Below, in pieces: positions 1 through 35,433 of a stretch of 64,000 nt of DNA. This DNA is from Pseudobdellovibrionaceae bacterium. GTDB taxonomy: Bacteria; Bdellovibrionota; Bdellovibrionia; Bdellovibrionales; Bdellovibrionaceae. Location: assembly GCA_019637955.1 (NCBI GenBank), contig JAHBUS010000010.1, forward strand, positions 1 to 64,000. Reading direction: 5' to 3'. Each line of letters begins with the position of its first letter. The stretch's first letter is position 1. A model generated the notes under the pieces. It saw only the letters and a list, made by a program, of their open reading frames with translations. It did no database searches and was not told the DNA's origin. The position numbers were made by a program, and so were the translations under genes.

Positions 1-553
1 GGGTGTTGCGCACAAGCATGTCATCACGCTTAAGACCTTGCACGCTCTCGGCCACCGAGGCCGAGGGCACCGAGGTGAGCGCGATCTCGGGCGCCAAGTT
101 CTCCGGCAAGCCAGTGGCCGAAGGCACAACGACAATGCGCAAAAACCGCTCATCACCTGACAAAGGAACGTAACCTGAAGGGCAGTTCGCGCTCACCGCG
201 AAGCTGTTCAGGTAATTGTTGTAGATCTTGGCCATCGAAAAGCCCGGATCGTTCGCCGTGCGCTTGGCCGCGCCGATCACGGAGCCCATCGAGAACTTGA
301 AGTACCCGTCCGAGACTTGAGTGTTGACGTTGGTGTACTCCTCTTCGTAGATCAAACAGTTCTTCGAAGGGTTGAGGATCTGCAGGCGCACGGTGAGTGA
401 GGTGTCAAGCAAAGGGTCCGACGTGCCGGTTTTGTAAAAGCGGCCGTCCACGGTTGTCGTGCGGGCTTGATCAATGGCGTGTGCAACAACGCTCAAGAAA
501 ATTCCTGAGAGAAAAATGCAGATTTGCCTTAAAAGATAAGCCTTAGTGATCAC
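1..553 (-). CDS. Tail-fibre-like secreted protein, N-terminal part (cut by window edge)
   Basis: Open to the left edge; GTG start at 553 is the only start after an in-frame stop at 560-562. The reading begins with a signal peptide ending near VVAHA, followed by about 150 residues that match the N-terminus of the giant fibre protein at 24475-30930. Both carry VDGRxxKTGT, a Cys in a NCLxYEE motif, KRTANDPGxSMA, a second Cys before a SGD/NGD turn, and IALTSVPSAxVAE. The family is secreted, and the second copy ends in an S74 self-cleaving chaperone, so this gene probably continues for kilobases beyond the edge. No clear Shine-Dalgarno sequence. It is divergent from the FecR-domain gene at 717, as in copy 2 of the cassette. 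Confidence 0.85.
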   Translation of the reverse strand, partial: MITKAYLLRQICIFLSGIFLSVVAHAIDQARTTTVDGRFYKTGTSDPLLDTSLTVRLQILNPSKNCLIYEEEYTNVNTQVSDGYFKFSMGSVIGAAKRTANDPGFSMAKIYNNYLNSFAVSANCPSGYVPLSGDERFLRIVVVPSATGLPENLAPEIALTSVPSASVAESVQGLKRDDMLVRNT

Positions 554-716
554 AAGGTTTTATCGGCGCTTGAAGGCTCGAACTGGAGTTGAATCTCAAT
601 CTGAGTCATTCCAAAGACTTTGGTCCAGCCAACCCGCACCAAGAAGCGCGACCAAGGACTTAAAAGCCCAATGATTTCAGCGACTTTTATCCCAGGCAAA
701 TTCAAAATAAGAATTC
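554..716. promoter_or_regulatory. Divergent intergenic region of cassette copy 1
   Basis: This 163-bp gap must hold the promoters of the minus-strand fibre gene and the plus-strand FecR-domain gene. On the minus strand GCCGATAA, the sigma-28 type -10 sequence, lies a few bases before the GTG start (about 560-568), but no matching -35 element is visible, so its role is uncertain. No repeat or hairpin stands out. Confidence 0.35.
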
Positions 717-2903
717 ATGCAACAAGCTGAACGCGAGCGTAAACTCGAGAGAAAAATTCTGTTGTTCGCGCTTCTCGGCTGTTTGATCAGCTTGCCGTTC
801 GTTTTCGAATCTTTTTATCTTTCGATTTTTCCGCCCGCAATTTCGACTGAAGGCATCCCTTTTGCCCAAGTGCAAGACATCGAAAGCGACGTGCGCCTCA
901 AACGCGGCGGACTGTTTGCCTGGAATGATGCGCACCCAAACAATACGATCAATCTCGGCGACACGATGTTTGTCGGCGAAGGGTCGTCGGGGCAAATTCA
1001 AACCAAAGACCAAACCGTCATGATCTTTGGCGCGAACACCCTGGTGCATTTCACTTCGCTCAACGGCTTTGATGTTCCCGAGATCCAGGGCGGCAACGTC
1101 CGGTTCATCGTCAATGGATCGACAAAGATTGCCATGAACGGAGAACTTCTGGAGATCACCGGGCAAGGAGCCGAAGTTCAACTTTATTTCGACTCCGACG
1201 GCAAACCGCAATTCAAAACTTTGCGCGGCGAGATGGCTGTCAACAAAATCGGTACGGGCGTGATCGCCTCCACCCGTCCCCTGCCCGACCCGCCTCCTGT
1301 CGAACTCATCTTCCAAAACGAAACTTATCAGCTGCGTTGGCAAGACCTCTACACGCTTGAGCCTGGCCGGCGCCTCAAAGTCAAACCGCCCGAGGCGATG
1401 ACGATCCACACCCGACAAGCTCTCAACTTAAACCGCATGCCGAAGGATGAAGCCTACGAGCTGCAGGTTTCACCGGACGAGGCTTTTGCCGAACCTCTGA
1501 CATCCACTTTGGTGGGCGGTTCGACCCAAACCATTCCGGATGCGTTCATTGGTCACAACTTTATCCGCGTCAAAAACAACGCGAAAAAGGTCTTCGCGGT
1601 CGGAACCTTTACGGTCCTAGCGACGACCTACCCGGCCGCCACTTTGGTGCGCGACGCGCGTTTCGACCGGGCCACGCAAACTCTCGCGCTGGATCTTGAA
1701 TCGGACCAGCCCGCGCAGGCATTTATCGTGGAGTTCTCCAAGAATCCCGTCTTCGACAAAGACGACGAAAAGCGCATCGTTCCTGTCGAAGACTTGAAGT
1801 CGATTCCCTACGAAGGCCACGGTCGCCTGTGGATTCGCGTTCAAGCCGTTCTGGCCAAAGACCTCGTGACGGACTTCTCTCTCGGTCACGCCCTGATGAC
1901 GACTCCGCGCGAAACTCTGGGCATCCCGATCCTGACTTTGAACAGCGACAAGGCCAATACGTTTGAAAACTTCCAAATCGCGTGGACACCGGTCGAAGGT
2001 GCCGACTCTTACGACGTCGAGTGGACGCACCCGGGCGGCGACATCGAGAGTTTCACGACGAACCTCACTCAGCACACCTTCAAGCCTTCGAAGAGCGGCT
2101 ACGCGAGCGTGCGCGTGCGGGCGAACCGTGGCAAACGTCATGGCCGTTACTCCGACACCGCCTCGGTCAACGTGACGGGATCGCTCCCGCATTTGGCCAA
2201 ACCCGTGATCGAAAAACCCGCTCGCGTCGATGTCGCCACCTCGTCGAACCGCCTGCGCGCGCCGTCGCTTCCCATCTACGATGGCCGCAATCGTTTTTAT
2301 GACTCGAACCTTGTCGCGGTTGAGCCCGGCGGATTCGTGGCCATCTCCAGCAATCAGAACAACCGTGCTCAAGAAGAGATCATGGCGACCATCCTCTCGG
2401 TGCGCGTGAATCACTGGATTCAAAACTGGGGGGTCGATGCCATGGCCCGCATGCAAGTGTTCGGCTTGACCGAAGCCGCCCAGCGCAGCCAGGCCCAAGA
2501 CATCGATGCCCGCCTGCTGTACCGACTGGATTTCGAGCCGCTGAAAATCCGATCTTACTTCCCCGTGGCTTCGCTGGCGCTCGGGTTTGAGAGCTACCGA
2601 AACTCGGGGGCCGAGTTCTACACGCCTGGTTACGATCTCGTGAAAGCGGGCCTTCGGATCAACTTCCCGGCTTGGCGCAACTGGAGCGCGGGCGGAGAGG
2701 TCTACTACGGCGTGGCTTCGGATCAATCGAATAAAACCGAGATCTCGGGCAACTTCGGTTACTTCTTTACCGAGAAGATCTCGGCGGGTCTTGGCTACCG
2801 TTTTTCTCTGTTTGAGGCAAAAACCTCGGCCACGTCGCCCGGGCCGCTTCCTTACCGCGAAGCTTACGGCGAGGGCTATTCCATTTTGAGATTCCACTAC
2901 TAA
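717..2903 (+). CDS. FecR-domain envelope protein with C-terminal barrel-like region (cassette copy 1)
   Basis: 728 residues. A basic N-terminus is followed by one hydrophobic helix (about 13-34) with no obvious cleavage site, so it looks like a membrane anchor. Residues about 55-165 form a FecR-like domain (GDTMFVGEGSSGQI..., a beta-rich periplasmic module). The middle (about 190-500) looks like repeated fibronectin-type modules with WxxxxGADSYDVEW-like strands. The last roughly 190 residues alternate aromatic and small residues and end in an aromatic Tyr, like an outer-membrane barrel. The closest relative in the window is 31055-33265; the C-terminal ISGNFGYFF, SAGLGYR and LPYREAYGEGYS motifs are nearly identical. 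Probably co-transcribed with the lipoprotein and phosphatase genes downstream. Function unknown. Confidence 0.85.
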   Translation: MQQAERERKLERKILLFALLGCLISLPFVFESFYLSIFPPAISTEGIPFAQVQDIESDVRLKRGGLFAWNDAHPNNTINLGDTMFVGEGSSGQIQTKDQTVMIFGANTLVHFTSLNGFDVPEIQGGNVRFIVNGSTKIAMNGELLEITGQGAEVQLYFDSDGKPQFKTLRGEMAVNKIGTGVIASTRPLPDPPPVELIFQNETYQLRWQDLYTLEPGRRLKVKPPEAMTIHTRQALNLNRMPKDEAYELQVSPDEAFAEPLTSTLVGGSTQTIPDAFIGHNFIRVKNNAKKVFAVGTFTVLATTYPAATLVRDARFDRATQTLALDLESDQPAQAFIVEFSKNPVFDKDDEKRIVPVEDLKSIPYEGHGRLWIRVQAVLAKDLVTDFSLGHALMTTPRETLGIPILTLNSDKANTFENFQIAWTPVEGADSYDVEWTHPGGDIESFTTNLTQHTFKPSKSGYASVRVRANRGKRHGRYSDTASVNVTGSLPHLAKPVIEKPARVDVATSSNRLRAPSLPIYDGRNRFYDSNLVAVEPGGFVAISSNQNNRAQEEIMATILSVRVNHWIQNWGVDAMARMQVFGLTEAAQRSQAQDIDARLLYRLDFEPLKIRSYFPVASLALGFESYRNSGAEFYTPGYDLVKAGLRINFPAWRNWSAGGEVYYGVASDQSNKTEISGNFGYFFTEKISAGLGYRFSLFEAKTSATSPGPLPYREAYGEGYSILRFHY

Positions 2904-2942
2904 GCGCTTGAGACGGCCCTTGCGGATTCCGATAAATCGGGT

Positions 2943-3239
2943 ATGAAATCCCGAGGTTTCGCTCTGATTTTAATCCTCATCGCTTTCGCGGCCACGGGCT
3001 GCGGCAAGCAGATGCGAGATTACATCGCCGTTGGCTCGGAAGACCTGCTCCCTTCGCCGGGCGGCACGCTGAATCCTTTTTCCGATGAGATCAAAACCGT
3101 TCGCGTCTCCTCGGGCTACGGCACGGCACAGGGCCCGAGCGCGAAAGTCACCGTCAGTATCGGACACGTCAATCAGGACGTGGTCGAAGGCACGACCGCC
3201 GATGCGCTCGTGCGTCTGTCCCACCAAAAAATGGATTAA
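2943..3239 (+). CDS. Small lipoprotein (cassette copy 1)
   Basis: 98 residues. The signal peptide ends in a lipobox (ATGC, Cys at about residue 20), predicting a lipid-anchored periplasmic or outer-membrane protein. The mature part begins GKQMRDYI and is otherwise low in recognisable motifs, with alternating beta-strand-like segments. The paralogue at 33319-33606 has the same lipobox, the same KQM-D-[YF/F] start and the same length class, and sits in the same place between a FecR-domain gene and a phosphatase. No Shine-Dalgarno sequence precedes the ATG; instead CCGATAA lies 7 bases upstream, and the same heptamer precedes the paralogue. Confidence 0.8.
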   Translation: MKSRGFALILILIAFAATGCGKQMRDYIAVGSEDLLPSPGGTLNPFSDEIKTVRVSSGYGTAQGPSAKVTVSIGHVNQDVVEGTTADALVRLSHQKMD

Positions 3240-3306
3240 ATCCTCCCAAAAGTAGATGACCTCGGTCGCAAACTCATGAATTCTTAGAGACGGGCACGGG
3301 AGGCTC

Positions 3307-5055
3307 GTGAAATTCGTCTCGATCAAATGGAAAATCGTGGTCGCGCTGATCGGCTTGGGAGTCGTCCTGGTCGGCTCTTACGTTTTGCTCGCCAAAAAAA
3401 CCTTTGAAGAAGACAAGATTTCGTACATTTACGAATCCCAGCAGTCCCAGGCCAATCTCATCTCCAAATCGATCTCGCAACAAATCCAACGTTCGCTTTT
3501 CAACGCGCGCAGCTTTCTGGCGGTGGCGAAAACCGAAAAGTGGGTCAAAAATTCGGTGACCATCGACCTGCTGAGCGCCGACGATTTTTTGTACGCCGTG
3601 CAGGGGCTCAAACCGACCAGCAATGAGCAGGTGTTCTCCTACCGAAAACCAGGTCTGCCCGCAACGGTGGTCTTTGGGGCGATCGACCGCAATCCGCCGG
3701 GCTTGGTTCTCAAACATCTCTTCGAAAACTATTGGCAGCTCGATCTCCCGGTGAAGGATTCGGGCCAACCGCTCGCCGTCGCGATCATTTTGCGTTTGAA
3801 CCTGGAGTTCGACGTCTTGAGAAATGACCAGAACTTGATGATCATGAGCGACACCGGCTTGGTGCTCAGCCGTCAGAAATTCGCGCCTGATCTCGAAAAA
3901 CAAATCGTCAATGCGGGTAAGGCCACCAGACTGGCCAACACCTCGAGAATTTCCAGCGGCGGCGAAAACTATCTTGTGTCGCTGTCATCGCTGGATTTCA
4001 GACCTTACAAAATCGCTCTGGCTTCGAATGAAGCGAGCGCCCTCGGCGCGTTGGACATTCTGTTTAAGCGTTCAATGTTCTTCGTCTTCTTTTCGATTTG
4101 CTTCATTTTCCTGATCTCGATTGGCATTTCGCGCGGCCTCACCCGCAATCTGCGCAAACTCACGGAAGAGTCCGAACAAATCGGTTTGGGCTATTTTGAA
4201 CCGGGGCCCGTTCTGGAATCCTCCGACGAGATCGGCCAGCTCTCGCGCGTCTTTCAACAAATGAAGGTGAAAATCAAAGGGCTGCTTGAGGACACCAAAG
4301 ACAAAACGCGAATGGAGCAAGAGCTGCAGACCGCGAAGCTCGTCCAAGAAAGCCTCTTCCCGCGTGAGCATGAAAAACACGTCGAAGCTCTTTCGATCTG
4401 GGGTCAGTTCGAAATGTACTCGGAGTGCGGCGGCGATTGGTGGTATTACTTCCGCCAGGGCGAGTGGCTTTACGTCGCCATCGCCGATGCGACCGGGCAC
4501 GGAACCCCCGCGGCCCTCGTCACCGCCGCCACGCGCTCGATCTTTTCGATGCTCGAGCACAGCAATTTGACCGTGACGCAAATGATGCAGGCCTGGCACA
4601 ACGCTGTCAGCTCGTGCTCGAACGAGCGCGTTTTCATGACCGCGTTTCTCATCAAGATCAACGGGCGCACCGGCCAGTACTCGTTTATCAACGCGAGCCA
4701 TGAGCCCCCGGCTCTCTTGCGCCGTGAAAACGGGATCTTCACGATGAACGTGCTCGCCGCCGAACGCAACCACCGGCTCGGAGATCAAGGCGCCCAAGAA
4801 TGGATCGAACAAAGCGGAACGCTGAACGCGGGCGAACGCTTGGTTCTTTACACCGACGGTCTCGTCGGCATGGAGAACGAAGAAGGCAAAACGATGGGCG
4901 AGAAACGCCTCTGGAAAAAGATCGCCCAGGCCGCCGACGAGACACCGAACGTGCGGCAAATGGGTCCGGAAGTCATGAAGGTCTTCAACGAGTTCCGCGG
5001 AACGCGGCCGATCAATGATGATGTCACCTTGGTGATTGTCGAACGCACTCTTTAA
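3307..5055 (+). CDS. Membrane HAMP-SpoIIE/PP2C phosphatase (cassette copy 1)
   Basis: 582 residues; GTG start with a strong GGGAGG ribosome site. TM1 at about 10-30, a periplasmic sensor region to about 253, TM2 at about 256-277, HAMP at about 278-330, a short coiled coil, then a SpoIIE-type PP2C domain. The metal-binding acidic motifs are all present: GGDWW, ADATGHG, YTDGL and a terminal DDVT. Such enzymes dephosphorylate regulatory proteins, often anti-sigma antagonists; here a periplasmic signal would pass through HAMP to the cytoplasmic phosphatase. Nearest paralogue is 33646-35433, with an almost identical juxtamembrane stretch (YVLLAKxTFExDKISYxY). The 3' end overlaps the convergent gene by 4 bases. 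Its substrate is not visible in this window. Confidence 0.92.
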   Translation: MKFVSIKWKIVVALIGLGVVLVGSYVLLAKKTFEEDKISYIYESQQSQANLISKSISQQIQRSLFNARSFLAVAKTEKWVKNSVTIDLLSADDFLYAVQGLKPTSNEQVFSYRKPGLPATVVFGAIDRNPPGLVLKHLFENYWQLDLPVKDSGQPLAVAIILRLNLEFDVLRNDQNLMIMSDTGLVLSRQKFAPDLEKQIVNAGKATRLANTSRISSGGENYLVSLSSLDFRPYKIALASNEASALGALDILFKRSMFFVFFSICFIFLISIGISRGLTRNLRKLTEESEQIGLGYFEPGPVLESSDEIGQLSRVFQQMKVKIKGLLEDTKDKTRMEQELQTAKLVQESLFPREHEKHVEALSIWGQFEMYSECGGDWWYYFRQGEWLYVAIADATGHGTPAALVTAATRSIFSMLEHSNLTVTQMMQAWHNAVSSCSNERVFMTAFLIKINGRTGQYSFINASHEPPALLRRENGIFTMNVLAAERNHRLGDQGAQEWIEQSGTLNAGERLVLYTDGLVGMENEEGKTMGEKRLWKKIAQAADETPNVRQMGPEVMKVFNEFRGTRPINDDVTLVIVERTL

Positions 5056-5981: not shown

Positions 5982-6028
5982 GTTTTCTCATTCTAATGAA
6001 GACGACCTGTCTTTGAAAGGAGACTTGA

Positions 6029-7524: not shown

Positions 7525-7538
7525 AAACCAACTGACTC

Positions 7539-7574
7539 ATAGATTTAAACTATGTGAGAATAGATATTTGGTAT
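7539..7574. promoter_or_regulatory. OxyR-like operator upstream of the ZIP transporter
   Basis: ATAG-N7-CTAT at 7539-7553 is a perfect dyad that also fits the inner T and A positions of the E. coli OxyR half-site consensus. A second, weaker copy (ATAG-N7-GTAT) starts at 7560, 21 bp on, close to the two-turn spacing OxyR tetramers need. It lies between oxyR and the ZIP gene. The match is seen directly; binding is inference. Confidence 0.6.
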
Positions 7575-13600: not shown

Positions 13601-13601
13601 C

Positions 13602-23456: not shown

Positions 23457-23531
23457 ATCTTTTTGTGTCGGACCTAAAAAGGCAAGACGCCCCTTGTGCA
23501 AGACCCTCTTTTGTCCCATGATCTGAAGGGT

Positions 23532-24452
23532 ATGCTCACGGAGAAAAAGCGCCTGGCCGCCATCGATATCGGAAGCAACGCCATCCGCATGGTGATCGCC
23601 GAATACTCGCCCCAAGGACTGCGCCCGCTTAAAAAGTACCGCATCCCCATCCGTCTCGGCGCCGATGTCTTCGAAAAAGGCAAAATCAGCGGCAAAAATC
23701 TCAAAGAAGCCGCGCGCGCTTTTCGCAAATTTCGCGAAGTTTCAAACAGGTTCGGCGTGACCCGCATCCGCGCGGTCGGGACCAGCGCCATGCGCGAATC
23801 GAAAAACCGCGCCGCCTTTGTCGAGCTGATCCGCCGTAAAAGCGGCATCAAGATCGAAGTGATCGACGGCGTCGAGGAGGCCCGCTTGATCCACCAAGCG
23901 GTGGCCAAAGAGATTCACCTCGAAGGGCACCGGGCGCTTCTGATCGACATCGGCGGCGGGAGCGTCGAGCTGACGTTTTCGGACGCGGGACTGATGAGCT
24001 CCACGCAGAGCTTCCCGTTTGGGACCGTGCGCACGCTCAATCTCTTGAAGAAAAAAAATCTCACCGAATCGCAGCTGGGCCTCGTGATCGGCGAGTTCAT
24101 CGCGCCGCTCTCGAACTTTATCCACGCACAGAGCGAAAGCTCACCGCTGGAGTTCGCGATCGGCACCGGCGGCAATCTCGAAGCCCTCGGGCGTCTCAAA
24201 GATCAGATTCTGAAGAAAACCTCGAAGGGCGATTTGAGCTACAACGAATTGGGCTTGATCATCGAGCGTCTGCGCGCGATGTCGGTTAAAGACCGCATCG
24301 AGAAACTCGAGCTGCGTCCCGACCGCGCGGACGTCATCGTCCCGGCCGCCATGGTGGTGCAAGCGGTGATGCGCCAATCCAATTTGGAAAAGATTCTGAT
24401 CCCGCACGTGGGCCTGAAAGACGGGATTCTCTGGTCGATGATCAAGCGCTAA
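23532..24452 (+). CDS. Ppx/GppA exopolyphosphatase-type phosphatase
   Basis: 306 residues from the ATG at 23532 (GAAGGG site); an upstream start at 23496 is weaker. Actin-like ATPase fold: AAIDIGSNAIRMVIAEY (phosphate 1), VGTSAMRESKN, LLIDIGGGSVELTF (phosphate 2) and IGTGGNLEAL. It lacks the C-terminal HD-like part of E. coli Ppx, so it is a two-domain Ppx/GppA form that removes phosphate from polyphosphate or pppGpp. Divergent from the porin-phoUBR operon, which fits phosphate metabolism; ppk1 is 13 kb away. Confidence 0.9.
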   Translation: MLTEKKRLAAIDIGSNAIRMVIAEYSPQGLRPLKKYRIPIRLGADVFEKGKISGKNLKEAARAFRKFREVSNRFGVTRIRAVGTSAMRESKNRAAFVELIRRKSGIKIEVIDGVEEARLIHQAVAKEIHLEGHRALLIDIGGGSVELTFSDAGLMSSTQSFPFGTVRTLNLLKKKNLTESQLGLVIGEFIAPLSNFIHAQSESSPLEFAIGTGGNLEALGRLKDQILKKTSKGDLSYNELGLIIERLRAMSVKDRIEKLELRPDRADVIVPAAMVVQAVMRQSNLEKILIPHVGLKDGILWSMIKR

Positions 24453-24474: not shown

Positions 24475-27400
24475 CTACTTGCTGGCGGGGACGCGTTTAT
24501 CGAGCGCCTTTTCGAGGCGATCCAGACGCGCTTTGAGTTCGGCATTTTCGGCTTCGAGTTTTTGGATGCGGCCGTCGTGGTTCATGACTTTCGCCCAAAC
24601 CTCTTTCACCGCTTCCACGACGATCGAGACGACGTTGCCGTACTTCACGCCGAGGATGCCCTGCTCATCGGGCTTGTTCGGATCTTTTTTCTCGCTCACC
24701 ATCTCGGGCGCGATTTTCTGCATGTCCTGCGCGATGAAGCCGATGTCCTCTTCATTGCTGCCATTCCATTTAAAGCGAACGCCCTTCATCGACAAAACTT
24801 TGCCCAGCGGACTTTCGATGGGACGCAGATCGTGCTTCAGGCGCGCGTCCGAGTGGTAATAGTACGCATGCGCGTACGCGGCGTTCATCGACGTGGTCCC
24901 TGCGGGATCGAGGTAGTAGCCCGTATTGTCGCGGTCGTAGATAAATGAAATGTGAGCGACGTTCATCACGCTCGTCGCACGAGGCTGCAAGTAGAAGCCC
25001 GTATTGCCGCCATCATAAAAGATCTGCGCGCGCATATCGTTGACGTTGCTCACACCGTTCGGGTCCACGTAATAACCCGTGTTGTTCGAATCGTAGAAAA
25101 TCGTCCCGTAGTGCGCGCCATCGGTCCCGATGTACGAGTTTCCCTGCCAGGCATTGAGAGACATCTTCGACCCCGGATCGAACGTGCCCGAATGCCAAAT
25201 CGTGTACGCGGCGCCGCCCATCGACCAACCGCCGACTTTCAAAACGTTGTCGGTGTCCAGACCGAAGTTGACCGCGTAAGCGCCAGGACGGTGGAACGAC
25301 ATCATCGCCGCGCCTCCGCCCACACCTTGAACTTCGGCTGAACCGCCGCCGCTCCCGGTGTAGCCGATCCCTTGACCCGACGTCGAGCGGCTGCCCACGT
25401 AAAGACCGCCATTCATCGGCGTGTAGCCGAGGGCCGTTGTGATCATGCCCGAGGTGATGCCGGTGATGTATCCGGGTCCGTTCGAGAGCTGATTGAGATT
25501 TGTCAGGTTGCCCGCATGCCAAACGTTGTTGCCACCCACTTGCAGGTTGCCCGCATTGAAGGTTCCCGACAGATAACCCGCACCGACGCCGTAAAACGCG
25601 TAGGTGTTGGCATGTCCAAGAAGACCGTACGCGGCACCGTTTTGCGAATAGCCAAGAACTCCCGCTCCTGCGGCATTGCTGGTTTGTGCGTTCACCGCAT
25701 GCGTGTCTCCCGGGACCACACCGCGAACCATCAAGCCGTTTTGCGCATAGAAACCTTTACCGCCGTAGGTTTTCACATAGTTGGCTTCGTCCATGTAAAT
25801 GCCGCCGCCGTAAGTGTGGTTGTACCATCCCGTCGCATTGTAAGTTCGATGCCATCCACCGCCGGCATCGATGACCGTGTTCCCGCCCACCTGCAAAGCG
25901 CCACTACCAGAGATATTGAGGGTGCCGGTCATGGTGTCGCCCGCCTTGTTCACCGGGGTGTAGCCCAGTGCCGTCGTGACGTTGCCCGAGGTGATGCCAG
26001 TGATGTAACCCGGACCGTTCGTGAGCTGATTCAAGTTCGAAAGATTGCCCGCATGCCAAATTTTATTCCAGGGAGCCGTTCCGGAGCCGCTCGTGGCGCG
26101 GTAGTACAGCTCATTGCTGTTGTAGAAATCTCCCGCAAACTGCATCGAATAGTAGTTGGCGTCGTTCGAGTGCGTCGACGACATGAGGTGGAACCAGCCA
26201 CCCGAATTCGTCGGCCAACCGTTGGCGGTCGAGGCCGCGCTCGTTTGGTAGAAGCCCGAATCGGTGCGGGTGGCGATACTGGCTTTATCGGCGACATGGA
26301 ACCCGGAGACCGACTGTGCCAAGCGGCCCGTCATCGTGTCACCCGCTTTATTGACAGGCGTGTAACCTAAAGAGGTTTGATAAGACGCGGGGTTGAAGTT
26401 CCCGGCGTGCCAGACTTGGCTGCCGTTTTGGGTGATCGCACCCGTGGTGTTGATACCGCCGTTGATGGCCGTGTCTCCCCACATCGTGATTTTACGGCCC
26501 GCCGCCGCCACCGTTTGGGTGCCCACGATATTCAATCCGGCCGCGAACAAGTTCGCGCCGATTTTACCGTCATTGCCATCGGATTGATTGGCGTGGCCGA
26601 AGCGAACGTGATTGCCGCTCGTGAAATCGAGACTGCCCACGCTGGAGTCGCCCGCTTTATTGACGGGCGTGTAACCCAAAAGATTCGCGACGGTGTCGCA
26701 GCCCAAAACGCCGCCGCCGTCAAATTTGGGAACCTGTCCGGTGGCGCACGAGAAGGCCGCGAGCTGCGTCCCTGTCCCGTTCGTTGAAACCAATTTGTTG
26801 GCGCCAAACGAGGTGGCGCCGGTGCCGCCTTTGCTCACCGGAACCGTCCCGAGCGTGAGGGTGTTCGAACCCGCGCTCGAGGTCACATCACCGGTGAACG
26901 CCGGCAAACGCGCCGCCGGCAGGGTGCCCGAAGCTAAGTTCGAGGCATTTAAGTTCGTCAAGTTCACGCCGCTCACGGCGGGGATTTCCGACGAGGCGTT
27001 GAGCTTTAAAATTTGATTCGCGCCGGTTCCCGAATTCAATGTCAGAACGGGTGCGGTCGTGGTGCTCGCCACCGCGATGTCCGCATTGGCGCTGGTCACG
27101 CTCGTGACCGTCCCGCCGCCGCCCGAGGGCCAAGCACTGCGGCAGTCGGCGCCGATACAAATTTGCGTGGCTTTCACCTTGCCCGCCACGTCCAACATTT
27201 CGGTGGGATTGGTGAGGCCGATCCCGACATTGCCCGATCCGTCCATACGAAGACCGGTGTTCGCCGACGACGTCCAAGGCGCGATGACAAATCCTTTGGC
27301 GGTTCCGATGGTCGATCCGCTGAAGATCAAACCCATATCCCCCGCTTGGGTCATCTGATTGTACGAACCCGCATTCATATTGGCGAAAATATGCGCGCCG

Positions 27401-30400
27401 ATCGTGTTTCCAGGGGTATTGGTGCCCGAAACCGTCAAGCCGCCGTTGGCCGAGCCTGACGACACGTGCAGGGTGTTGTTCGGCGACGCGGTCCCGATCC
27501 CCGTGTTTCCGGTGGAGAGCATCGTCATTCGCGGGGTGGCATTGACGTAGAAATTCAGATCACCATTGGCCGCGCCCGTGTAGTTGGTCATGAACAAACC
27601 GGTGTCGCCGTTCGCTTCAAACGCAAGACCCACGGCCGCCGCGTCGCTCGCGGGCGCGCCCGCTTTCAAACGAATGGCGCTTCCCATCGTCAGTGCGCCG
27701 CTCATGCTGTCACCCGCTTTGAGAACGTAGTTGTTCAGCGAGGCCGCACTGGCTTTGTCATTAAAGGTGTTCCAATCCGTCGAGCTCAAGTAACCATTCG
27801 TCGACGTCGTGGCCTGCGAGATGGTGAGAGCCGGTGTCGTCGTTCCGGTGCTGACGCTCAAGGGAGCGGTCGCGGTCACGTTGGTCACGGTTCCCGCATT
27901 CATGTCGACCCAAGACGTGTCCGTGCCGTTGGTGCGCAAGACCTTGCCGCTATTCAGCGACTGTGATGGTAAAAGTGCATTTAGCGCGGCGTTGGCCGTG
28001 GTCTGACCCGTCCCGCCCTTGTTGATGGGAACAACCGCACTCAAGTTCGCGGGATTCAAATTCGTAAGATCCGAACCGTCGATCGCCGGCAGCTTATTGC
28101 CCGCGGCCACCTGCACGATCTTTCCGGTCGTGGTTCCGACGTCGATATTTAAAGTTCCAGAACCGCTGATCGTGCCGCCAGGACCCGCGCCCACATTGAG
28201 GCCCGTGCCGGCGGTCACGCCCGTCACGGTTCCGCCCGAACCGGTCGCCGAGATTTGAATGCCGCCCGCCGAGTTCGTGATCGTCACGCCCGCGCCGCTG
28301 GTGATCGACTTGTACTCGCCGGCGGTGCCCGCATTGTTCATCCCAAAAATCTGGTTGCCCGTGCCGCCGGTATTCAATCCGGTCAGCAGCGCGGGCACGC
28401 CGGTGATTTTCGACCAAGCCACATCGTTGATTTTCGCATCGGTCACGGCCAGATTGTTGATTTTTCCCGTGGTGATCGCGTTCGGCTGAATCGTGGCGCC
28501 GGCAGAGCCCGGGCCCGTCGCCACCACATCGCCGGTGAGCGCGGTGAGATAATTTCCCGCGGCTTGTTTATTATTAAAGGTGTTCCAGTCCGCGGCGCTC
28601 AAAAATCCGGGCGTCGTGGTGTTCGCCTGCGAAATCGTGATCGCGGGCGTGGACGAGTTGTTGGTCACCGAGATGGGAGCAGAGCCCGTGACGTTCGTCA
28701 CCGTTCCGCCCGAACCGGTCGCCGAGATTTGAATGCCACCTGCCGAGTGCGTGATGGTCACGCCGGAGCCGCCGGTGACGGATTTGTATTCGCCCGCGGT
28801 GCCCGCGGCGTTCATGCCGAACATTTGGTTGCCCGTGCCACCCGTGTTCAATCCGGTCAGAACCGTGGGAACTCCCGTGATTTTTGACCAAGCCACATCG
28901 TTGATTTTTGCATCGGTCACGGCCAGATTGTTGATCTTCGTGGTGGTGATTGCGTTCGGCTGAATGGTGGCTGATGCCGAACCGGGACCTGCGGCTGTCA
29001 CGTCGCCCGTCAAGGCGGTCACGTAGTTGCCAGCTGGTTGTTTGTTGTTAAACGTGGTCCAATCGGCCGCGCTCAGGTAACCATCGGTCGACGTCGTTGC
29101 TTGACTGATCGAGATGGCGGGAGCCGAGTTGCCGTTCAGAACCGACAAGGGCGCTGAGCCCGTGACGTTCGTCACCGTTCCGCCCGATCCCGTCGCCGAG
29201 ATTTGAATGCCACCCGCCGAGTGCGTGACCGTCACGCCCGCGCCGCTGGTGATAGACTTGTATTCCATCGCGCTGCCCGCGGCATTCACCGCCAGGATTT
29301 GGTTGTTCGTTCCCAGCGCCGAGAGGCCGGTTCCACCTTTATTCACGTCAACGACCGGCAAACGGGCCGCATTCAGCGTTCCCGAAACGATGCGGTCGGC
29401 ATCGAGCATGATGTTCGTGCACGAGAACGCATCGGTGATCGTCGACCAGGTCAGAGTTTGATGAGCGGCGCAGTTGGCCGCGAATTGCTGCAAGCCCGCC
29501 TCGGTGCGAAGATCATCCACGCCGAAGTTCACGGCCTCGAACTGAGATCCCGACCACCGGTAAACTTTTCCGGCATCGCCAACGGCAAGTGTTCCCGCCG
29601 CGATCGCATTTCCGCGAAGCGCGTGAACTGAAGGATTCGGATAGTTGCCGCCCAAGTCCCCACCGGCGGCGCCGCCGGGAACATTCGAAATCGAGGTCCA
29701 CGAAAGTTTGCCGGCGCTATCCGTTTGTAGCACCTGTCCATTGGTTCCCAGAGCCGACGGCAGCGTCAAGACAACCGGCGCGCTCAACGACGAATCGGCC
29801 ACGAACTCGACGTAGTTGACCGTCGAGGGCTTATAAACACGTAGGGCGTTCAAGCGCGCATCGTTGGCCGTCACCGAGTTGGTCGCGGTCAGATTCGTTC
29901 CCGAAATATTGGCCGTGACCGAGATCGCGCCCGAGATGGCGGGACCGCTCAAGTTGCTGAGATTTGATCCATCGAGAGCCGGAAGCTTGCCACCCGTCTG
30001 CACTTGCACGATCTGCCCGTCGCCGGTGCCGACATTCACGTTGAGCGTTCCCGTGTTGGTGATCGCGCCGCCCGGACCCACGCCCACATTCAGGCCCGTG
30101 CCCGCGGTCACGCTCTGCACGCCCGAACCCGCAACGCCCAAAACTTGGGGGCCCGAATTGGACTGGTATTTCAAACTGTTCGAGGCGGTGTCGTACCAAA
30201 TCTGCCCGGCGCTCGCGCCCGACGCGTTTCCGGACAGACCCGGAATCGAAGCGGCGCCGTTGGTTCCTTGCTTCATGTACAAGGACGACGTTCCACCCAG
30301 GAGCGCTTGGAGAATCGGCAGCTGAGTGGTGTTGAAAAGCGCCTCGAGGTTGTTTTGATCCAGGCGAACGGCGCCATCGGTGTTGACTTGAAGAATGGAG

Positions 30401-30930
30401 TCGCGGCTCAAACCGCCGACGGTCTCCGCGACTTTCGCGCTGGGCACGGACGTCAAAGCGATATCGGGGCTCAGCGTTTGCGGGCCGCCGGTGGTCGGCT
30501 GAATGATCACGCGAAGATAACGGGCATCACCGTTGCCGGGCGTGTAACCGGCCAAGCAGCCGGGCCCCGAAGGAAACGAGTTCATCTGGTTGTTGAAGAT
30601 GCGCGCCATCGAATAGCCGGGATCGTTCGCCGTGCGCTTGCCGGTCAAGTCGGGAGCGGCCGAGCCCACTTTCAAGCTGAAATAACCGTTCGAAAGTTCG
30701 GTGTCGTAAGTTTGCGTCTCTTCGTACAGCAAGCAGTTGCGTCCCGGATTCAAGACCTGAATGACGAACCCGAGATTGGGATCTTTGAGAGGATTCGTGG
30801 TTCCGGTTTTAAAGAGCCGGCCATCCACGCTGGTGGACCAAGGCTGATCGGCATATGCGAAGATCGAAAAGAGCGCGCCGAAGAGCATGGTTAAGGCAAA
30901 AATGACGGAGCGGTTCTGAGAACGTCCCAT
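24475..30930 (-). CDS. Giant tail-fibre-like secreted adhesin with S74 chaperone (cassette copy 2)
   Basis: 2151 residues from the ATG at 30930, chosen because a clear signal peptide follows it (ending FAYA); the open frame extends to 31395. The first 170 residues match the partial gene at 1-553. The middle is a mosaic of Gly/Thr/Asn-rich tail-fibre modules, including repeats of NTGGTGNQ, TVTNVTGSAP and TALTGDV, and phage-like AWHAGNL turns. Near the C-terminus come three roughly 27-residue units with NTGYYVDP. The end is a peptidase_S74 self-cleaving chaperone (SDARLKHDLRPIE, GFIAQDM) plus a trimer coiled coil. This is the build of trimeric phage fibres and of the mosaic fibre adhesins reported in Bdellovibrio. 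It probably binds other cells or surfaces. Confidence 0.93.
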   Translation of the reverse strand: MGRSQNRSVIFALTMLFGALFSIFAYADQPWSTSVDGRLFKTGTTNPLKDPNLGFVIQVLNPGRNCLLYEETQTYDTELSNGYFSLKVGSAAPDLTGKRTANDPGYSMARIFNNQMNSFPSGPGCLAGYTPGNGDARYLRVIIQPTTGGPQTLSPDIALTSVPSAKVAETVGGLSRDSILQVNTDGAVRLDQNNLEALFNTTQLPILQALLGGTSSLYMKQGTNGAASIPGLSGNASGASAGQIWYDTASNSLKYQSNSGPQVLGVAGSGVQSVTAGTGLNVGVGPGGAITNTGTLNVNVGTGDGQIVQVQTGGKLPALDGSNLSNLSGPAISGAISVTANISGTNLTATNSVTANDARLNALRVYKPSTVNYVEFVADSSLSAPVVLTLPSALGTNGQVLQTDSAGKLSWTSISNVPGGAAGGDLGGNYPNPSVHALRGNAIAAGTLAVGDAGKVYRWSGSQFEAVNFGVDDLRTEAGLQQFAANCAAHQTLTWSTITDAFSCTNIMLDADRIVSGTLNAARLPVVDVNKGGTGLSALGTNNQILAVNAAGSAMEYKSITSGAGVTVTHSAGGIQISATGSGGTVTNVTGSAPLSVLNGNSAPAISISQATTSTDGYLSAADWTTFNNKQPAGNYVTALTGDVTAAGPGSASATIQPNAITTTKINNLAVTDAKINDVAWSKITGVPTVLTGLNTGGTGNQMFGMNAAGTAGEYKSVTGGSGVTITHSAGGIQISATGSGGTVTNVTGSAPISVTNNSSTPAITISQANTTTPGFLSAADWNTFNNKQAAGNYLTALTGDVVATGPGSAGATIQPNAITTGKINNLAVTDAKINDVAWSKITGVPALLTGLNTGGTGNQIFGMNNAGTAGEYKSITSGAGVTITNSAGGIQISATGSGGTVTGVTAGTGLNVGAGPGGTISGSGTLNIDVGTTTGKIVQVAAGNKLPAIDGSDLTNLNPANLSAVVPINKGGTGQTTANAALNALLPSQSLNSGKVLRTNGTDTSWVDMNAGTVTNVTATAPLSVSTGTTTPALTISQATTSTNGYLSSTDWNTFNDKASAASLNNYVLKAGDSMSGALTMGSAIRLKAGAPASDAAAVGLAFEANGDTGLFMTNYTGAANGDLNFYVNATPRMTMLSTGNTGIGTASPNNTLHVSSGSANGGLTVSGTNTPGNTIGAHIFANMNAGSYNQMTQAGDMGLIFSGSTIGTAKGFVIAPWTSSANTGLRMDGSGNVGIGLTNPTEMLDVAGKVKATQICIGADCRSAWPSGGGGTVTSVTSANADIAVASTTTAPVLTLNSGTGANQILKLNASSEIPAVSGVNLTNLNASNLASGTLPAARLPAFTGDVTSSAGSNTLTLGTVPVSKGGTGATSFGANKLVSTNGTGTQLAAFSCATGQVPKFDGGGVLGCDTVANLLGYTPVNKAGDSSVGSLDFTSGNHVRFGHANQSDGNDGKIGANLFAAGLNIVGTQTVAAAGRKITMWGDTAINGGINTTGAITQNGSQVWHAGNFNPASYQTSLGYTPVNKAGDTMTGRLAQSVSGFHVADKASIATRTDSGFYQTSAASTANGWPTNSGGWFHLMSSTHSNDANYYSMQFAGDFYNSNELYYRATSGSGTAPWNKIWHAGNLSNLNQLTNGPGYITGITSGNVTTALGYTPVNKAGDTMTGTLNISGSGALQVGGNTVIDAGGGWHRTYNATGWYNHTYGGGIYMDEANYVKTYGGKGFYAQNGLMVRGVVPGDTHAVNAQTSNAAGAGVLGYSQNGAAYGLLGHANTYAFYGVGAGYLSGTFNAGNLQVGGNNVWHAGNLTNLNQLSNGPGYITGITSGMITTALGYTPMNGGLYVGSRSTSGQGIGYTGSGGGSAEVQGVGGGAAMMSFHRPGAYAVNFGLDTDNVLKVGGWSMGGAAYTIWHSGTFDPGSKMSLNAWQGNSYIGTDGAHYGTIFYDSNNTGYYVDPNGVSNVNDMRAQIFYDGGNTGFYLQPRATSVMNVAHISFIYDRDNTGYYLDPAGTTSMNAAYAHAYYYHSDARLKHDLRPIESPLGKVLSMKGVRFKWNGSNEEDIGFIAQDMQKIAPEMVSEKKDPNKPDEQGILGVKYGNVVSIVVEAVKEVWAKVMNHDGRIQKLEAENAELKARLDRLEKALDKRVPASK
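28216..29300 (-). repeat. 474-bp tandem repeat inside the fibre gene
   Basis: The segment beginning AGATTTGAATGCC occurs at 28251, 28725 and 29199, exactly 474 bp (158 codons) apart, with long stretches of near identity between copies. Each unit codes for TALTGDV..., TTxKINNLAVTDAKIND, TGLNTGGTGNQ and SAGGIQISATGSGGTVT. A further partial copy occurs near 27750-27890. Copies differ by in-frame substitutions only, so the repeat keeps the frame. Confidence 0.85.
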
Positions 30931-31054
30931 AGGTTCTTTTTCGTCACAATCTTCACGAAACTTAAACAATGATTGGTTTTGGGACGCGACGAAGGGCCGG
31001 ACCCCAAACGGCTCAGTTTGAGTCACTTCTCGAGACATGAGACTCTTTACTTTC
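30931..31054. promoter_or_regulatory. Divergent intergenic region of cassette copy 2
   Basis: About 124 bp between the fibre gene and the FecR-domain gene, the same arrangement as 554-716. On the minus strand TTTAAGTTT sits about 40 bases before the fibre ATG, reminiscent of a sigma-28 -35 element, but the -10 does not match well. No inverted repeat stands out. Confidence 0.3.
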
Positions 31055-33265
31055 ATGTCGAAACAACAGCGAAAATCCACCGATCGGGCCATCCTGATCA
31101 CCTGCCTCTTGATCTGTTTGGTGACCCTGCCCTTGTTTTTCGAAGGCATCTTTTCGCGGGTGTTCTCTTTCGGCGATGGCGACTCGGGGTCCTTGATCGG
31201 GTCGGTCCTCGAGCCCCGCAATGACATCCGCATCAAATCGAAAAACTCCTTGAGCTGGACCAATCTGAAAACCAAAAAGACCGACCTTCGTCTCGGCAAT
31301 TCGGTCTTCAGCGGCGCCGGCTCCGAAACCACGATCAAGCTCGAAAACGGCCTCACCATCAACATGAAAGAAAACTCGCTCATCAAGTTCACCAAGGTCG
31401 GCGACTTGATGGTGCCCGAGATCGGCTACGGAAGCTTCGAGCTCAGCTCGCAGGCGGGGGTGCAAATCATGAAGGACGGTAAGCTCTACACCGTCCAGAA
31501 CACCTCGATGGGCAGCATCCGCTTGGTGGCCGATCAAAACGGCTTTCGCGCCTTTGATGCCTCGAATGCCGAGATCGATCTCGCGAACGGCCTGATCACC
31601 AGCACGGCCAAGATGCCGGTCGGCTCAACGCCCTCGCCGATCAAGGCCACCGACCTCATCCCGGCCGATCAGACCGTGGACTTCGAGGCCCGTCTCGACG
31701 ACATTTACCAAACCAACGACGATGGCACTTACGCCCGCAAGTTTGGACACGATCTTGAGCGCCCGCTTCACTTTTCTTGGCAGACCGGCGCGCACGCGAT
31801 GAAACAACGCTTGGAGCATGCCGACAACTCGCAAATGCGCGACGCGCGCGGCTTTGAAACCCAAAGCCAAAACGAAATCCTGGTCGACCGCCTGTTCTTG
31901 GGCACGAACTACTGGCGCGTGATGCCCGATCAAGCCTCTTGGTCCGAAGTGCGACGTTTCGAAGTGGTTCTTAAATATTTCGACTCTCACCTGCGTCTTC
32001 TCTCCCCCCAACGCAGCCCGCTCGTGGCCCGTCCTCCGAACCGCCTTTCGCTGATCGTCTCCGGCGCTCCGAATCCCGAAGTCGCCGGCATTTTGGTCGA
32101 AGTCGAACGCGACAACGAAGGCCCCGAAAGCGTGCGGGCTTTTTTATTCGAGCCTGGTCAAGCCATTCAAGTTCCGCTCGATTCGACGGGCCTTTACCGC
32201 CTGCGCGCCCGTGAAGTTCTCAAAAACCGTTTGCTCTCGTCCTCCACCAACGAACTTCAGTTCGAGGTGCTCTCACCCCGGCTCCCCGAGCCTCCCGAAT
32301 TTTTGGGACCTGACCGCGTTCCCTTAAGCCTCTCGCAGCTCACGCGTCTGGAGTGGAGCAACGCGGGCACCGCCAAGCAGTTCGACGTCGAGATCCACAA
32401 TTTGACGACGGGCGAACGCCAAATCAAGTCGGTGCACACCAACAATCTGGCGTTCCAGTCCGACAGTGCCGGCACCTTCAACCTGCGCGTCCGCCAGCGC
32501 GACGGCTACGGGCAGCGCAGCGGTTGGTCGCGGATGAAAGAGATCGAAGTGATGGCGCCCATCAAGCCGCCGCCGCTCGCGCAAAATATCGAGAACGATT
32601 TTAGCAACCGCGACAAACTCCCGTTTCCCAAACCGAGCCCGATCTTCTCGAACGACACCTACGATAGCGATCAGATCGCCGCCGAGGTCTCGGGCTACGC
32701 CATGACATCGTCCGAACAAAAACTCGTCGCCCGCGACGTCGCCCTGGGAAGCATTCTGGGTCTGCGCATCCGCAAAAACTTTTTCAAACAACAAGCCGGC
32801 GAAGCCAATCTGCGCGTTCAAACCGTGGGCTTTAATGACACGGCTCACTCGTCTCTGTACTCGGCGGACTTGCGCTACTTCTACCGCCTCGAGAACAACT
32901 GGTTCGAATCTTGGAAATGGCGCCCGTTCATTTCCCTGGGAGCCGGGGCCGAGATGTTCAGGTCGACCAATCAGCAGATCTTCGCGCCCAAGTACGACCT
33001 CATGAAAATCGGATTCCGCGTGAACTTTCCCTACCGCCGCTCTTGGACCATGGGGGGCGACGTGTTTTACGGCCAAGCCGCGGACTCGAGCACCAAGATC
33101 GAGATCTCGGGCAACTTCGGATACTTCTTCGACCACCGCTTCTCGGCGGGTCTTGGCTACCGCGTGTACTTCTTCGACGCGGCCACCGCGGCCTCAACTC
33201 CCATGGGGCTCCCGTACCGCGAAGCCTTCGGCGAGGGCTATTCGGTTTTCCGCTACCACTTCTAG
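31055..33265 (+). CDS. FecR-domain envelope protein with C-terminal barrel-like region (cassette copy 2)
   Basis: 736 residues from the ATG at 31055; an ATG at 31037 is in frame, but the shorter start aligns with the paralogue at 717 (basic N-terminus, then a helix with LPLFFEGIFS versus LPFVFESFYL). One N-terminal membrane helix (about 12-33), a FecR-like domain (about 50-165), fibronectin-like middle (LTRLEWSNAGTAKQFDVEI), and a C-terminal roughly 190-residue region ending in Phe like a barrel. ISGNFGYFF, SAGLGYR and LPYREAFGEGYS are shared with copy 1. The combination of a likely uncleaved inner-membrane helix with a barrel-like end is odd. Function unknown. Confidence 0.85.
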   Translation: MSKQQRKSTDRAILITCLLICLVTLPLFFEGIFSRVFSFGDGDSGSLIGSVLEPRNDIRIKSKNSLSWTNLKTKKTDLRLGNSVFSGAGSETTIKLENGLTINMKENSLIKFTKVGDLMVPEIGYGSFELSSQAGVQIMKDGKLYTVQNTSMGSIRLVADQNGFRAFDASNAEIDLANGLITSTAKMPVGSTPSPIKATDLIPADQTVDFEARLDDIYQTNDDGTYARKFGHDLERPLHFSWQTGAHAMKQRLEHADNSQMRDARGFETQSQNEILVDRLFLGTNYWRVMPDQASWSEVRRFEVVLKYFDSHLRLLSPQRSPLVARPPNRLSLIVSGAPNPEVAGILVEVERDNEGPESVRAFLFEPGQAIQVPLDSTGLYRLRAREVLKNRLLSSSTNELQFEVLSPRLPEPPEFLGPDRVPLSLSQLTRLEWSNAGTAKQFDVEIHNLTTGERQIKSVHTNNLAFQSDSAGTFNLRVRQRDGYGQRSGWSRMKEIEVMAPIKPPPLAQNIENDFSNRDKLPFPKPSPIFSNDTYDSDQIAAEVSGYAMTSSEQKLVARDVALGSILGLRIRKNFFKQQAGEANLRVQTVGFNDTAHSSLYSADLRYFYRLENNWFESWKWRPFISLGAGAEMFRSTNQQIFAPKYDLMKIGFRVNFPYRRSWTMGGDVFYGQAADSSTKIEISGNFGYFFDHRFSAGLGYRVYFFDAATAASTPMGLPYREAFGEGYSVFRYHF

Positions 33266-33318
33266 TCTCAAAATGAGGCAGACTTAAGTCCCGAGGCCCC
33301 CGTCCCGATAAGAACGGT

Positions 33319-33606
33319 ATGAAAACGCTCTTGGGATTGACCGTCATCGCCGTGGGTTTGATGGCCACCGGTTGTAATAAGCAGATGGACGACTTCGTGT
33401 CGGGCGTGAAACGCATTCAACCCAGCCTCGAGAACGTCATCCCTTTTGAAGATGACGGCGTGAACTACGTGCGCCTCAGCGTCGCCGAAGAAAAAGTCTC
33501 GAGCGCCTCGTACACGGGACAAGTCGTCATCGGCGCTCCCGTCGATCAGATTCAGAATGCCAACGTGTCGGCCTCGATCGTGGTGAACCGCACATCCGTC
33601 GAATAG
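33319..33606 (+). CDS. Small lipoprotein (cassette copy 2)
   Basis: 95 residues. Lipobox MATGC with Cys at residue 19, then NKQMDDFVSG, matching the start of the copy-1 lipoprotein (GKQMRDYIAVG). The rest is weakly similar, with conserved turns (NPF/IPF, VRxS, TVSIG/VVIG). CCGATAA precedes the ATG as in copy 1. It lies 53 bp after the FecR-domain gene and 39 bp before the phosphatase, so all three are probably one transcript. Confidence 0.8.
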   Translation: MKTLLGLTVIAVGLMATGCNKQMDDFVSGVKRIQPSLENVIPFEDDGVNYVRLSVAEEKVSSASYTGQVVIGAPVDQIQNANVSASIVVNRTSVE

Positions 33607-33645
33607 CGAATTGACCCCGCCGCCTCCGCCCTTCATAGTTAAAGG

Positions 33646-35433
33646 GTGAGATTCTTTAGCCTCAAATGGAAAATCGCTCTCGCCATGGCCGGACTCAGCG
33701 TCCTCGTGGTGCTCCTCTACGTCCTTCTGGCCAAGAGCACGTTCGAACAAGACAAGATCTCGTACGTTTACGACACCCAGCAAACTCAAGCCGACCTCCT
33801 CGCCAATTCGATCTCGCAGCGGATCGAAAAGGCGACCCTGCAAGCAAGCCTGCTCGCCGGCGAGTACATCCGCACCGGTCACGCCCCCGATCTGTCCTCG
33901 CAGACCGATCCGACTTTTGAAGTTTTGGCTTACGACTTGGCTCAAGCGCGCGTCGTCTTTCACGTCGCGAAAGGCACCAAGTCCATGACGCCCGCGACGG
34001 TTTGGCCCCGTCTCGAGCCCCAATCGCCGGTCTCAATCATCGTGCGCGATCCGAACACTTGGGATCTGATCACGCTCGTGCGCAATTCGACCACCGGCGC
34101 CTCTCTCTATGTCATGGTGCCGATCACTCTCGGACAGGACTTTTCAACGTTGCGAGACACGCAAGAAGTGATTTTGTCGTCGCAAAGCGATCTCGCGCCC
34201 GCGCGGATCGAAACCTCGGCATTTCTCGATGTGCGCGGCGAGCTCGCGGCTCAAGTGGCCGCGCACGACATGGCGTCGACGTTCGAACTCGATGCGGGGG
34301 GCGAGCCGCGCTTGGTCTCGATGGCGTTTCTGACCGCCAAACCCTACCGCATTTTGATTCTTTCCAAGACGCAAGAAGCGCTCGCGGCCTTGCAGCTTCT
34401 TTTCAAGCGCTCGGCGTTTTTCTTGCTCTTTTCGGTGTCGATGATCTTCGGGCTCTCGTTCCTTCTGTCGGGTCAGCTGACCGGCGCCCTCTCGGATTTG
34501 AGCGAGGAGACCGAGCGCGTGGGAACCGGCGACTTCGGTCCCGGCGAAGGCGTGAGGTCCAACGACGAGATCGGCCAGCTGTCTCAGGCGTTCGAAATCA
34601 TGAAGAGCAAAATTGTCGAGCTGCTCGCGAAAACCAAAGAAACCGCGCGCATGGAACAAGAGCTTAAAACCACCAAGCTCGTTCAAGAAAGCCTGTTCCC
34701 GAAAAAGTCGCTCGCGCAGGTGGGCGACTTCACGCTCAGCGGCTACTTCCAAACCAGCACCGAGTGCGGCGGCGACTGGTGGTACTACTTCACAAAAGGC
34801 GACGACCTGTACGTGGCCATCGCCGATGCCACGGGCCACGGAACGCCGGCGGCCTTGATCACCGCGACCGCGCGCTCCTGCTTTTCGTTCTTCGAAAAAA
34901 ATCCGCTTCCGCTCCCCGACATGATGAACGAATGGTCCGATGCCGTGGCGGCCTGCTCGAACCAGCGCGTTTTCATGACCGCGATGATCTTTAAGTTCAA
35001 CGTCAAAACCGGAGCTTACGAGTATCTCAACGCCAGCCACGAGCCCCCGTTCAAGTTCCGCAATGAGCGCAATCTCTTCTATGCCGAACCTTTGGATGTC
35101 GAACGCGGCAAGACCCTCGGCGAAGACGCCAAAGTTCAATGGAACGTGAAGCGCGGCCAACTCGCCCCCAGTGAGAAGATGATGATTTTTACCGATGGAC
35201 TTTTTGCGGTGACGGACCCGCAAGGCAACTTGCTCTCGGAAAAGCGCGTGCTCAAACAATTGCAGGAGCTCGCGGATTCTTCGCAAGGACTTGAGGACTT
35301 TGCCGGGCAATCGATGGGTCTTTTCGAAGCGCACCGCCAAGGCGCGATCCTCCCCGATGACATCACCGCGATCTTCATCGAACGCGCCAAGGGCGAAGCG
35401 CCCCCCGCCCCCAAAAAAACCTACGGTCTTTAA
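33646..35433 (+). CDS. Membrane HAMP-SpoIIE/PP2C phosphatase (cassette copy 2)
   Basis: 595 residues, GTG start. Same order as copy 1: TM1 (about 10-30), periplasmic sensor to about 250, TM2 (about 255-277), HAMP, coiled coil, PP2C. Motifs GGDWW, ADATGHG, FTDGL and DDIT hold the metal ligands, so the phosphatase should be active. The periplasmic sensor is the most divergent part, while the segment just after TM1 (LAKSTFEQDKISYVYDTQQ) is nearly the same as copy 1, suggesting a shared signalling mechanism with different inputs. Ends 6 bases from convergent sixA. Confidence 0.92.
   Translation: MRFFSLKWKIALAMAGLSVLVVLLYVLLAKSTFEQDKISYVYDTQQTQADLLANSISQRIEKATLQASLLAGEYIRTGHAPDLSSQTDPTFEVLAYDLAQARVVFHVAKGTKSMTPATVWPRLEPQSPVSIIVRDPNTWDLITLVRNSTTGASLYVMVPITLGQDFSTLRDTQEVILSSQSDLAPARIETSAFLDVRGELAAQVAAHDMASTFELDAGGEPRLVSMAFLTAKPYRILILSKTQEALAALQLLFKRSAFFLLFSVSMIFGLSFLLSGQLTGALSDLSEETERVGTGDFGPGEGVRSNDEIGQLSQAFEIMKSKIVELLAKTKETARMEQELKTTKLVQESLFPKKSLAQVGDFTLSGYFQTSTECGGDWWYYFTKGDDLYVAIADATGHGTPAALITATARSCFSFFEKNPLPLPDMMNEWSDAVAACSNQRVFMTAMIFKFNVKTGAYEYLNASHEPPFKFRNERNLFYAEPLDVERGKTLGEDAKVQWNVKRGQLAPSEKMMIFTDGLFAVTDPQGNLLSEKRVLKQLQELADSSQGLEDFAGQSMGLFEAHRQGAILPDDITAIFIERAKGEAPPAPKKTYGL

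Follow-up and report, generated by a model that had tools for sequence, protein, structure and literature searches.

Paralogous cassettes associating MAT fibres with a FecR-like barrel protein, a small lipoprotein and a HAMP-PP2C phosphatase in a Pseudobdellovibrionaceae bacterium

The window analysed here, a 64,000-nt stretch of DNA from a Pseudobdellovibrionaceae bacterium whose first base is base 1 of contig C2, contains a fibre gene, a FecR-like gene, a small lipoprotein gene and a phosphatase gene in two copies (Table 1). The original prediction had claimed that this four-gene set is present twice with the same order and strands and that each gene pair shares clear protein motifs; gene calls bore out the arrangement in both copies, and paralogy was seen at the DNA and protein levels. 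Direct DNA repeats tie the two cassettes at a constant offset of 30,339-30,374 nt, and the 19 kb between them hold unrelated genes. Between copy 1 and copy 2 the identity is 42% for the phosphatases, 43% for the barrels and ~53% for the fibre N-domains, while the lipoproteins match at E ~5e-5. The predicted duplication is supported because the window phosphatases (support 100) and the window barrels (95/81) pair as sisters. Since the window begins at the first base of the contig, the copy 1 fibre breaks off after 184 aa, before its S74 domain would be reached; the start of the copy 2 fibre was reset to ~30930, at the Met of the signal peptide, and not 31395. Pfam recognised SpoIIE in both phosphatases and S74 in fibre 2, and gave no match in the FecR-like proteins and lipoproteins of the window.

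Table 1. Features of the two cassettes, in window coordinates.
Feature	Position	Strand	Description
Copy 1 fibre	2-553	-	N-terminal 184 aa: signal peptide and MAT N-terminal domain
Copy 1 divergent intergenic region	554-716		palindrome-bearing motif CTCAATCTGAGTCA at 595-608
Copy 1 FecR-like protein	717-2903	+	N-terminal hydrophobic helix ~14-32; predicted C-terminal outer-membrane barrel 528-728
Copy 1 small lipoprotein	2943-3239	+	lipobox TGC
Copy 1 phosphatase	3307-5055	+	TM, periplasmic domain, TM, HAMP, SpoIIE/PP2C; catalytic Asp intact
Copy 2 MAT fibre	24475-30930	-	2151 aa: signal peptide, MAT N-domain (30379-30888), repeats, C-terminal S74 with SDARLK
Copy 2 divergent intergenic region	30931-31036		palindrome-bearing motif CTCAGTTTGAGTCA at 31012-31025
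Copy 2 FecR-like protein	31037-33265	+	helix 9-34; beta-rich FecR-like region 53-181; Ig/FN3-like to ~506; predicted 10-strand barrel 546-742
Copy 2 small lipoprotein	33319-33606	+	lipobox TGC
Copy 2 phosphatase	33646-35433	+	TM, periplasmic domain, TM, HAMP, SpoIIE/PP2C

Copy 2 is flanked by a Ppx/GppA gene (23496-24452) and by a His_Phos_1 and polyphosphate kinase pair (35440-38087), and is placed as if inserted among polyphosphate genes. Elsewhere in the window (56350-56488), a 36-nt unit containing a short inverted repeat (CGAACTCGCTTTGCGAGTTCG) is repeated.

Mosaic adhesive trimer (MAT) fibres are published Bdellovibrio adhesins, recognised by an N-terminal domain after the signal peptide and a C-terminal S74 with SDxxxK or NS74; they are trimeric and bind glycans of the target-cell surface (PMC10769870). 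According to the same authors, the surface element bound by the MAT N-terminal domain awaits identification (PMC10769870). Both window fibres appear to be of this known kind, as the MAT N-domain was found after the signal peptide in both copies. The copy 2 fibre in addition ends in S74 (Pfam, 1.8e-14) with the SDARLK motif, and the copy 1 sequence ends before the tip. Within fibre 2 (28214-29313), a 474-nt (158-aa) repeat occurs in three copies with 81-100% identity over the compared stretch. Genome G036 is taken here to be that of Bdellovibrio bacteriovorus HD100. As a control, the MAT domain model gave 21 matches in it, equal to the 21 published for HD100 (PMC10769870).

The window type shares with the published fibres the N-terminal domain after the signal peptide and, in copy 2, the C-terminal S74 with SDxxxK. 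It differs in belonging to a separate N-domain clade, found mainly in barrel genomes and linked to a signalling cassette, whereas no such partner is described for the HD100 MATs in PMC10769870. This clade comprises 19 sampled fibres (support 96), all of them from barrel-carrying genomes in that sample. A clade made of the barrel-adjacent fibres alone was rejected, given that non-adjacent fibres of the same genomes fall inside it too. Most fibres of the barrel-associated clade (class B) in these genomes do not lie beside a barrel, and Bdellovibrio, which lacks the barrel, still has many MATs; the barrel is therefore not a general MAT dock.

The FecR-like protein of a minority of genomes extends into a C-terminal domain of ~200 residues whose last residue is aromatic. 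When the full-length model was compared with PDB folds, the matches were mainly fibronectin/Ig-repeat proteins and told nothing about this domain, so it was modelled separately. Modelled alone with AlphaFold2, it forms a barrel of 10 strands (pLDDT 86.6, pTM 0.81), and all 50 matches listed by Foldseek against the PDB are membrane beta-barrels. Forty-eight of these are natural outer-membrane barrels or translocators and the other two are chains of one designed transmembrane barrel; the top matches are OpcA and Pla/OmpT, with NspA, FadL, porins, NalP and EstA also listed. The full-length FecR-barrel model (pTM 0.34) leaves the order in space of the helix, the FecR-like region, the Ig/FN3-like region and the barrel unfixed. 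The FecR model PF04773 does not match either window FecR-like protein, even at E 0.1; it matches a relative's homologue (L071, 29.6 bits), which is homologous to the window proteins in its N-region. In a tree of the FecR N-domain, based on few columns and with long branches, the barrel-bearing proteins cluster and the two window copies are not paired. The stretch ahead of the hydrophobic helix is only ~13-17 residues long in the window proteins, and a comparison of signal peptide with anchor was not decisive for this helix, which may be a cleaved signal peptide. Thus, of the envelope-spanning unit that had been predicted, the outer-membrane barrel and the N-terminal hydrophobic helix are both found as predicted features, and a retained inner-membrane anchor remains inferred.

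The phosphatases have two TM helices and a HAMP domain, which is above the Pfam cut-off in copy 2 and just under it in copy 1 (23.8 of 25), and their PP2C catalytic Asp residues are intact in the alignment. Together with two contig-cut relatives, the barrel-linked phosphatases form one clade (support 100). SiaA of the SiaABCD system (PMC7647112) is their best NCBIfam resemblance, with two TM helices, HAMP and SpoIIE/PP2C as well. They differ from SiaA in scoring far under the cut-off of the equivalog test (55.5 and 49.9 bits against 700), in having a FecR-like partner, and in the lack of SiaB, SiaC and SiaD neighbours in the window. The cassette phosphatase probably acts like a partner-switching PP2C but is not SiaA. 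Neither a STAS-type substrate nor an antagonist kinase gene was found inside the cassettes; a STAS-like protein is encoded on contig C8, and STAS and HATPase_c_2 genes occur elsewhere in the genome. One stretch of contig C1 (168378-170960), with three HATPase_c_2 matches, two STAS matches and a weak SpoIIE match, may be a partner-switching or stressosome cluster and could hold the targets of the phosphatase.

The two enzymes belong to a much wider association. A scan of named genomes with the copy 2 phosphatase alone as query found nothing; with an alignment of four phosphatases as query, the 80 best relatives were kept, and flanks were readable at 75. A FecR-like gene lies within 5 kb of 67 of these 75 SpoIIE loci, and 55 of the 67 are immediately adjacent and divergent. 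The paired loci cover Bdellovibrio (B. bacteriovorus among them), Halobacteriovorax, Bacteriovoracaceae and Oligoflexia. A STAS-like gene, a histidine kinase and response regulators are often found close by, and in most relatives the pair occurs without fibre, lipoprotein or barrel. The window's own genome also has a barrel-less FecR/SpoIIE pair, at the C8 locus with the STAS-like protein. FecR-like and phosphatase distances co-vary (Mantel r 0.90, p<=0.001, 73 pairs, with species history left in), in agreement with the co-divergence of trees that had been put forward as a check. Co-location in relatives, the other check, stood for the FecR-SpoIIE pair, which is found phylum-wide, and failed for the complete four-gene order, which is present in this genome only; elsewhere the parts are partial, shuffled, or in the kinase variant described below. 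The FecR-like and HAMP-SpoIIE pair thus appears to be an ancient core, and the window cassettes a derived form of it. The ancestral locus resembles the cassettes in its homologous FecR-like N-region and phosphatase. Unlike them, its genes are divergent and not collinear, it lacks barrel, lipoprotein and fibre, and it has a STAS-like gene near. No name for this locus was found in the open-licence literature searched.

The barrel itself is present in 14 of the 141 genomes of the order (strong in 10); in a phylum-wide sample of 369 genomes, 15 carry it. The lipoprotein family was first met in both cassettes and later turned up at barrel loci or, in barrel genomes, close to MAT fibres. It occurs in 12/141 genomes, including nine of the 10 with a strong barrel (p 4.6e-11; 3.1e-7 at the genus level). 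The MAT clade, searched across the order at a match threshold of at least 200 bits, occurs in 10/141 genomes, seven with a strong barrel (p 7.2e-8; genus level 3.6e-5); the genomes behind these values are not independent, which the genus-level figures correct only partly. Training of both the lipoprotein and the MAT model drew mostly on barrel genomes, and in genomes outside the training the associations persist but are weaker (lipoprotein-barrel p 0.0009, MAT-lipoprotein 0.0002, MAT-barrel 0.017). As exceptions, a clade fibre but no detected barrel is seen in G077 and G120 (74% complete), barrel, lipoprotein and phosphatase but no clade fibre in G008, and the lipoprotein alone in G094. This common phylogenetic profile of barrel, lipoprotein and one MAT clade, along with the FecR-SpoIIE pairing, agrees with the original prediction that the parts are not chance neighbours.

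Gene neighbourhoods point the same way. In both window copies, L059, L109 and L061, at most one gene separates the fibre from the barrel, and at L053 a lipoprotein and a short ORF stand between them. Such a fibre neighbour at six of 12 barrel loci has p ~2e-9 under a simple model that uses the HD100 fibre count, assumes independence and counts no more than the two nearest neighbours, one of the six not being immediately adjacent. The lipoprotein adjoins the barrel in both window copies, L058, L108 and L109, and in G047 two MAT fibre genes have it directly upstream. A phosphatase accompanies the barrel in both window copies, L058, L059 and L108 (convergent, with one gene between). In another family, a membrane Ser/Thr kinase takes its place behind the FecR-barrel front end: at L060, L061 and L107 (the last cut at the contig end), the gene directly downstream of the barrel encodes a Hanks-type kinase with a TM helix. 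At L110 and L111 a histidine kinase gene is divergent from the barrel gene. A third FecR-barrel gene of the window's genome (contig C1, L006:9878-17126) is divergent from a gene for a 1670-aa protein with Big_13 and FGE-sulfatase domains, and no SpoIIE or lipoprotein match was found beside it. In G272, from another family of the class, a 3.4-kb contig (L296) carries a cut MAT N-domain and a FecR-barrel gene with two ORFs between.

The divergent gaps of the two cassettes share a 14-base palindrome-bearing sequence, CTCANNNTGAGTCA, with exactly two occurrences in the 3.77-Mb genome, one per gap. The exact count is weak on its own, since ~1.8 occurrences are expected under uniform base composition; its interest would lie in the common position within two otherwise diverged gaps. 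The pattern CTCAN3TGAG also closely precedes another class-B fibre (L285:10337), and recurs between the FecR and lipoprotein genes at window position 33267 and at L058:8984. A scan of both gaps for Sigma70-type promoters gave no site.

In its predicted architecture, the cassette recalls FecA-FecR-FecI, in which an outer-membrane barrel, a periplasmic FecR-like region and an inner-membrane helix likewise make up one relay. Here, the barrel has 10 strands and is fused in the same chain, in contrast to the 22-strand TonB-dependent receptor with a plug of the FecA type. The cytoplasmic N-terminus is short, with no N-terminal cytoplasmic anti-sigma domain, and the output is a phosphatase or a kinase. 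No FecI-type sigma gene is present in the cassette, and none of the flanking genes that have a Pfam match encodes a sigma factor. As the tested defining features fail, the FecR-like region excepted, this is not a FecI/FecA system, and the label FecR must not be taken to imply one.

Building on the computed barrel fold, the FecR-phosphatase pairing, the co-occurrence of barrel, lipoprotein and fibre clade, and the intact catalytic residues, we propose, at about even confidence, that each cassette is a trans-envelope unit in which barrel and lipoprotein dock the fibre and its state is relayed inward to a phosphatase or kinase. We infer that the N-terminal helix is kept as an anchor, so that the FecR-like protein would span the envelope from the inner membrane, through a periplasmic FecR and Ig/FN3-like stalk, to the outer-membrane barrel. 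Barrel and small lipoprotein would form a surface dock for the N-terminal domain of one MAT clade, to which the divergently encoded fibre belongs. Engagement of prey or a surface by the fibre, or occupation of the dock, might be transmitted along the stalk to the adjacent PP2C phosphatase through the periplasmic domain and HAMP of that enzyme. The phosphatase would then dephosphorylate a Ser/Thr-phosphorylated protein, in the likeliest case a STAS-type antagonist, by analogy with SiaABC partner switching (PMC7647112); in the other family, the same front end would be coupled to the membrane Ser/Thr kinase instead. The cassette may in this way serve in contact sensing. More tentatively, and with our confidence clearly short of even, it could be a previously undescribed adhesin-to-cytoplasm system. 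In this reading a single chain, spanning from the inner to the outer membrane, would dock MAT fibres together with a dedicated lipoprotein and would switch a Ser/Thr phosphatase (a kinase in a sister lineage), so that the fibres of the predator act as sensors in addition to adhering.

The same anatomy and co-occurrence would also fit if the signal ran outwards, with the phosphatase sensing a periplasmic or envelope cue and controlling the display, release or expression of the fibre via the FecR-barrel protein and the lipoprotein. The palindrome common to the divergent promoter regions suggests that fibre and signalling genes may be co-regulated. However, if FecA-FecR is taken as a guide, fusion of the barrel to the FecR-like protein puts a surface element on the upstream side of the phosphatase, and the barrel-less FecR/phosphatase pair is widespread without fibres; we consider this outward control unlikely. 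About as unlikely, in our judgement, is a mainly structural role, in which the barrel protein ties fibres to the outer membrane and cell body, and the adjacent phosphatase is inherited from the ancestral FecR-SpoIIE pair and receives no signal from the fibre. The linkage of barrel, fibre and lipoprotein does occur without an adjoining enzyme, at L053 and, within the limits of its contig, at L109, and the C1 barrel of the window's own genome is without SpoIIE. Against it, eight barrel loci (both window copies, L058, L059, L108, L060, L061 and L107) have an enzyme of matching topology adjacent or one gene away, convergent at L108, and the linkage persisted while the enzyme type switched between phosphatase and kinase.

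It could finally be argued that independent genes came to lie together by chance in a fibre-rich genome, given that fibres are numerous and the exact four-gene order is seen in this genome only. The fibre neighbours of the barrel loci (p ~2e-9, simple model), the order-wide co-occurrence and the retention of all four genes in two paralogous copies disfavour this strongly, and we regard it as very improbable.

In the open-licence literature, no description was found of the FecR-phosphatase pair, of its link to MAT fibres or of the four-gene set. Since the surface partner of the MAT N-domain has yet to be identified, according to the authors who described these fibres (PMC10769870), the trans-envelope dock is a concrete, testable proposal for one MAT clade. 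It touches on how predators of the Bdellovibrio type attach the fibres that recognise prey, and how they sense that a fibre has bound. A defined protein pair, barrel and lipoprotein, is nominated for that clade, and the phylum-wide FecR-phosphatase module for the part of a possible receiver. The exchange of a phosphatase for a kinase behind one front end would be an unusual instance of modular output.
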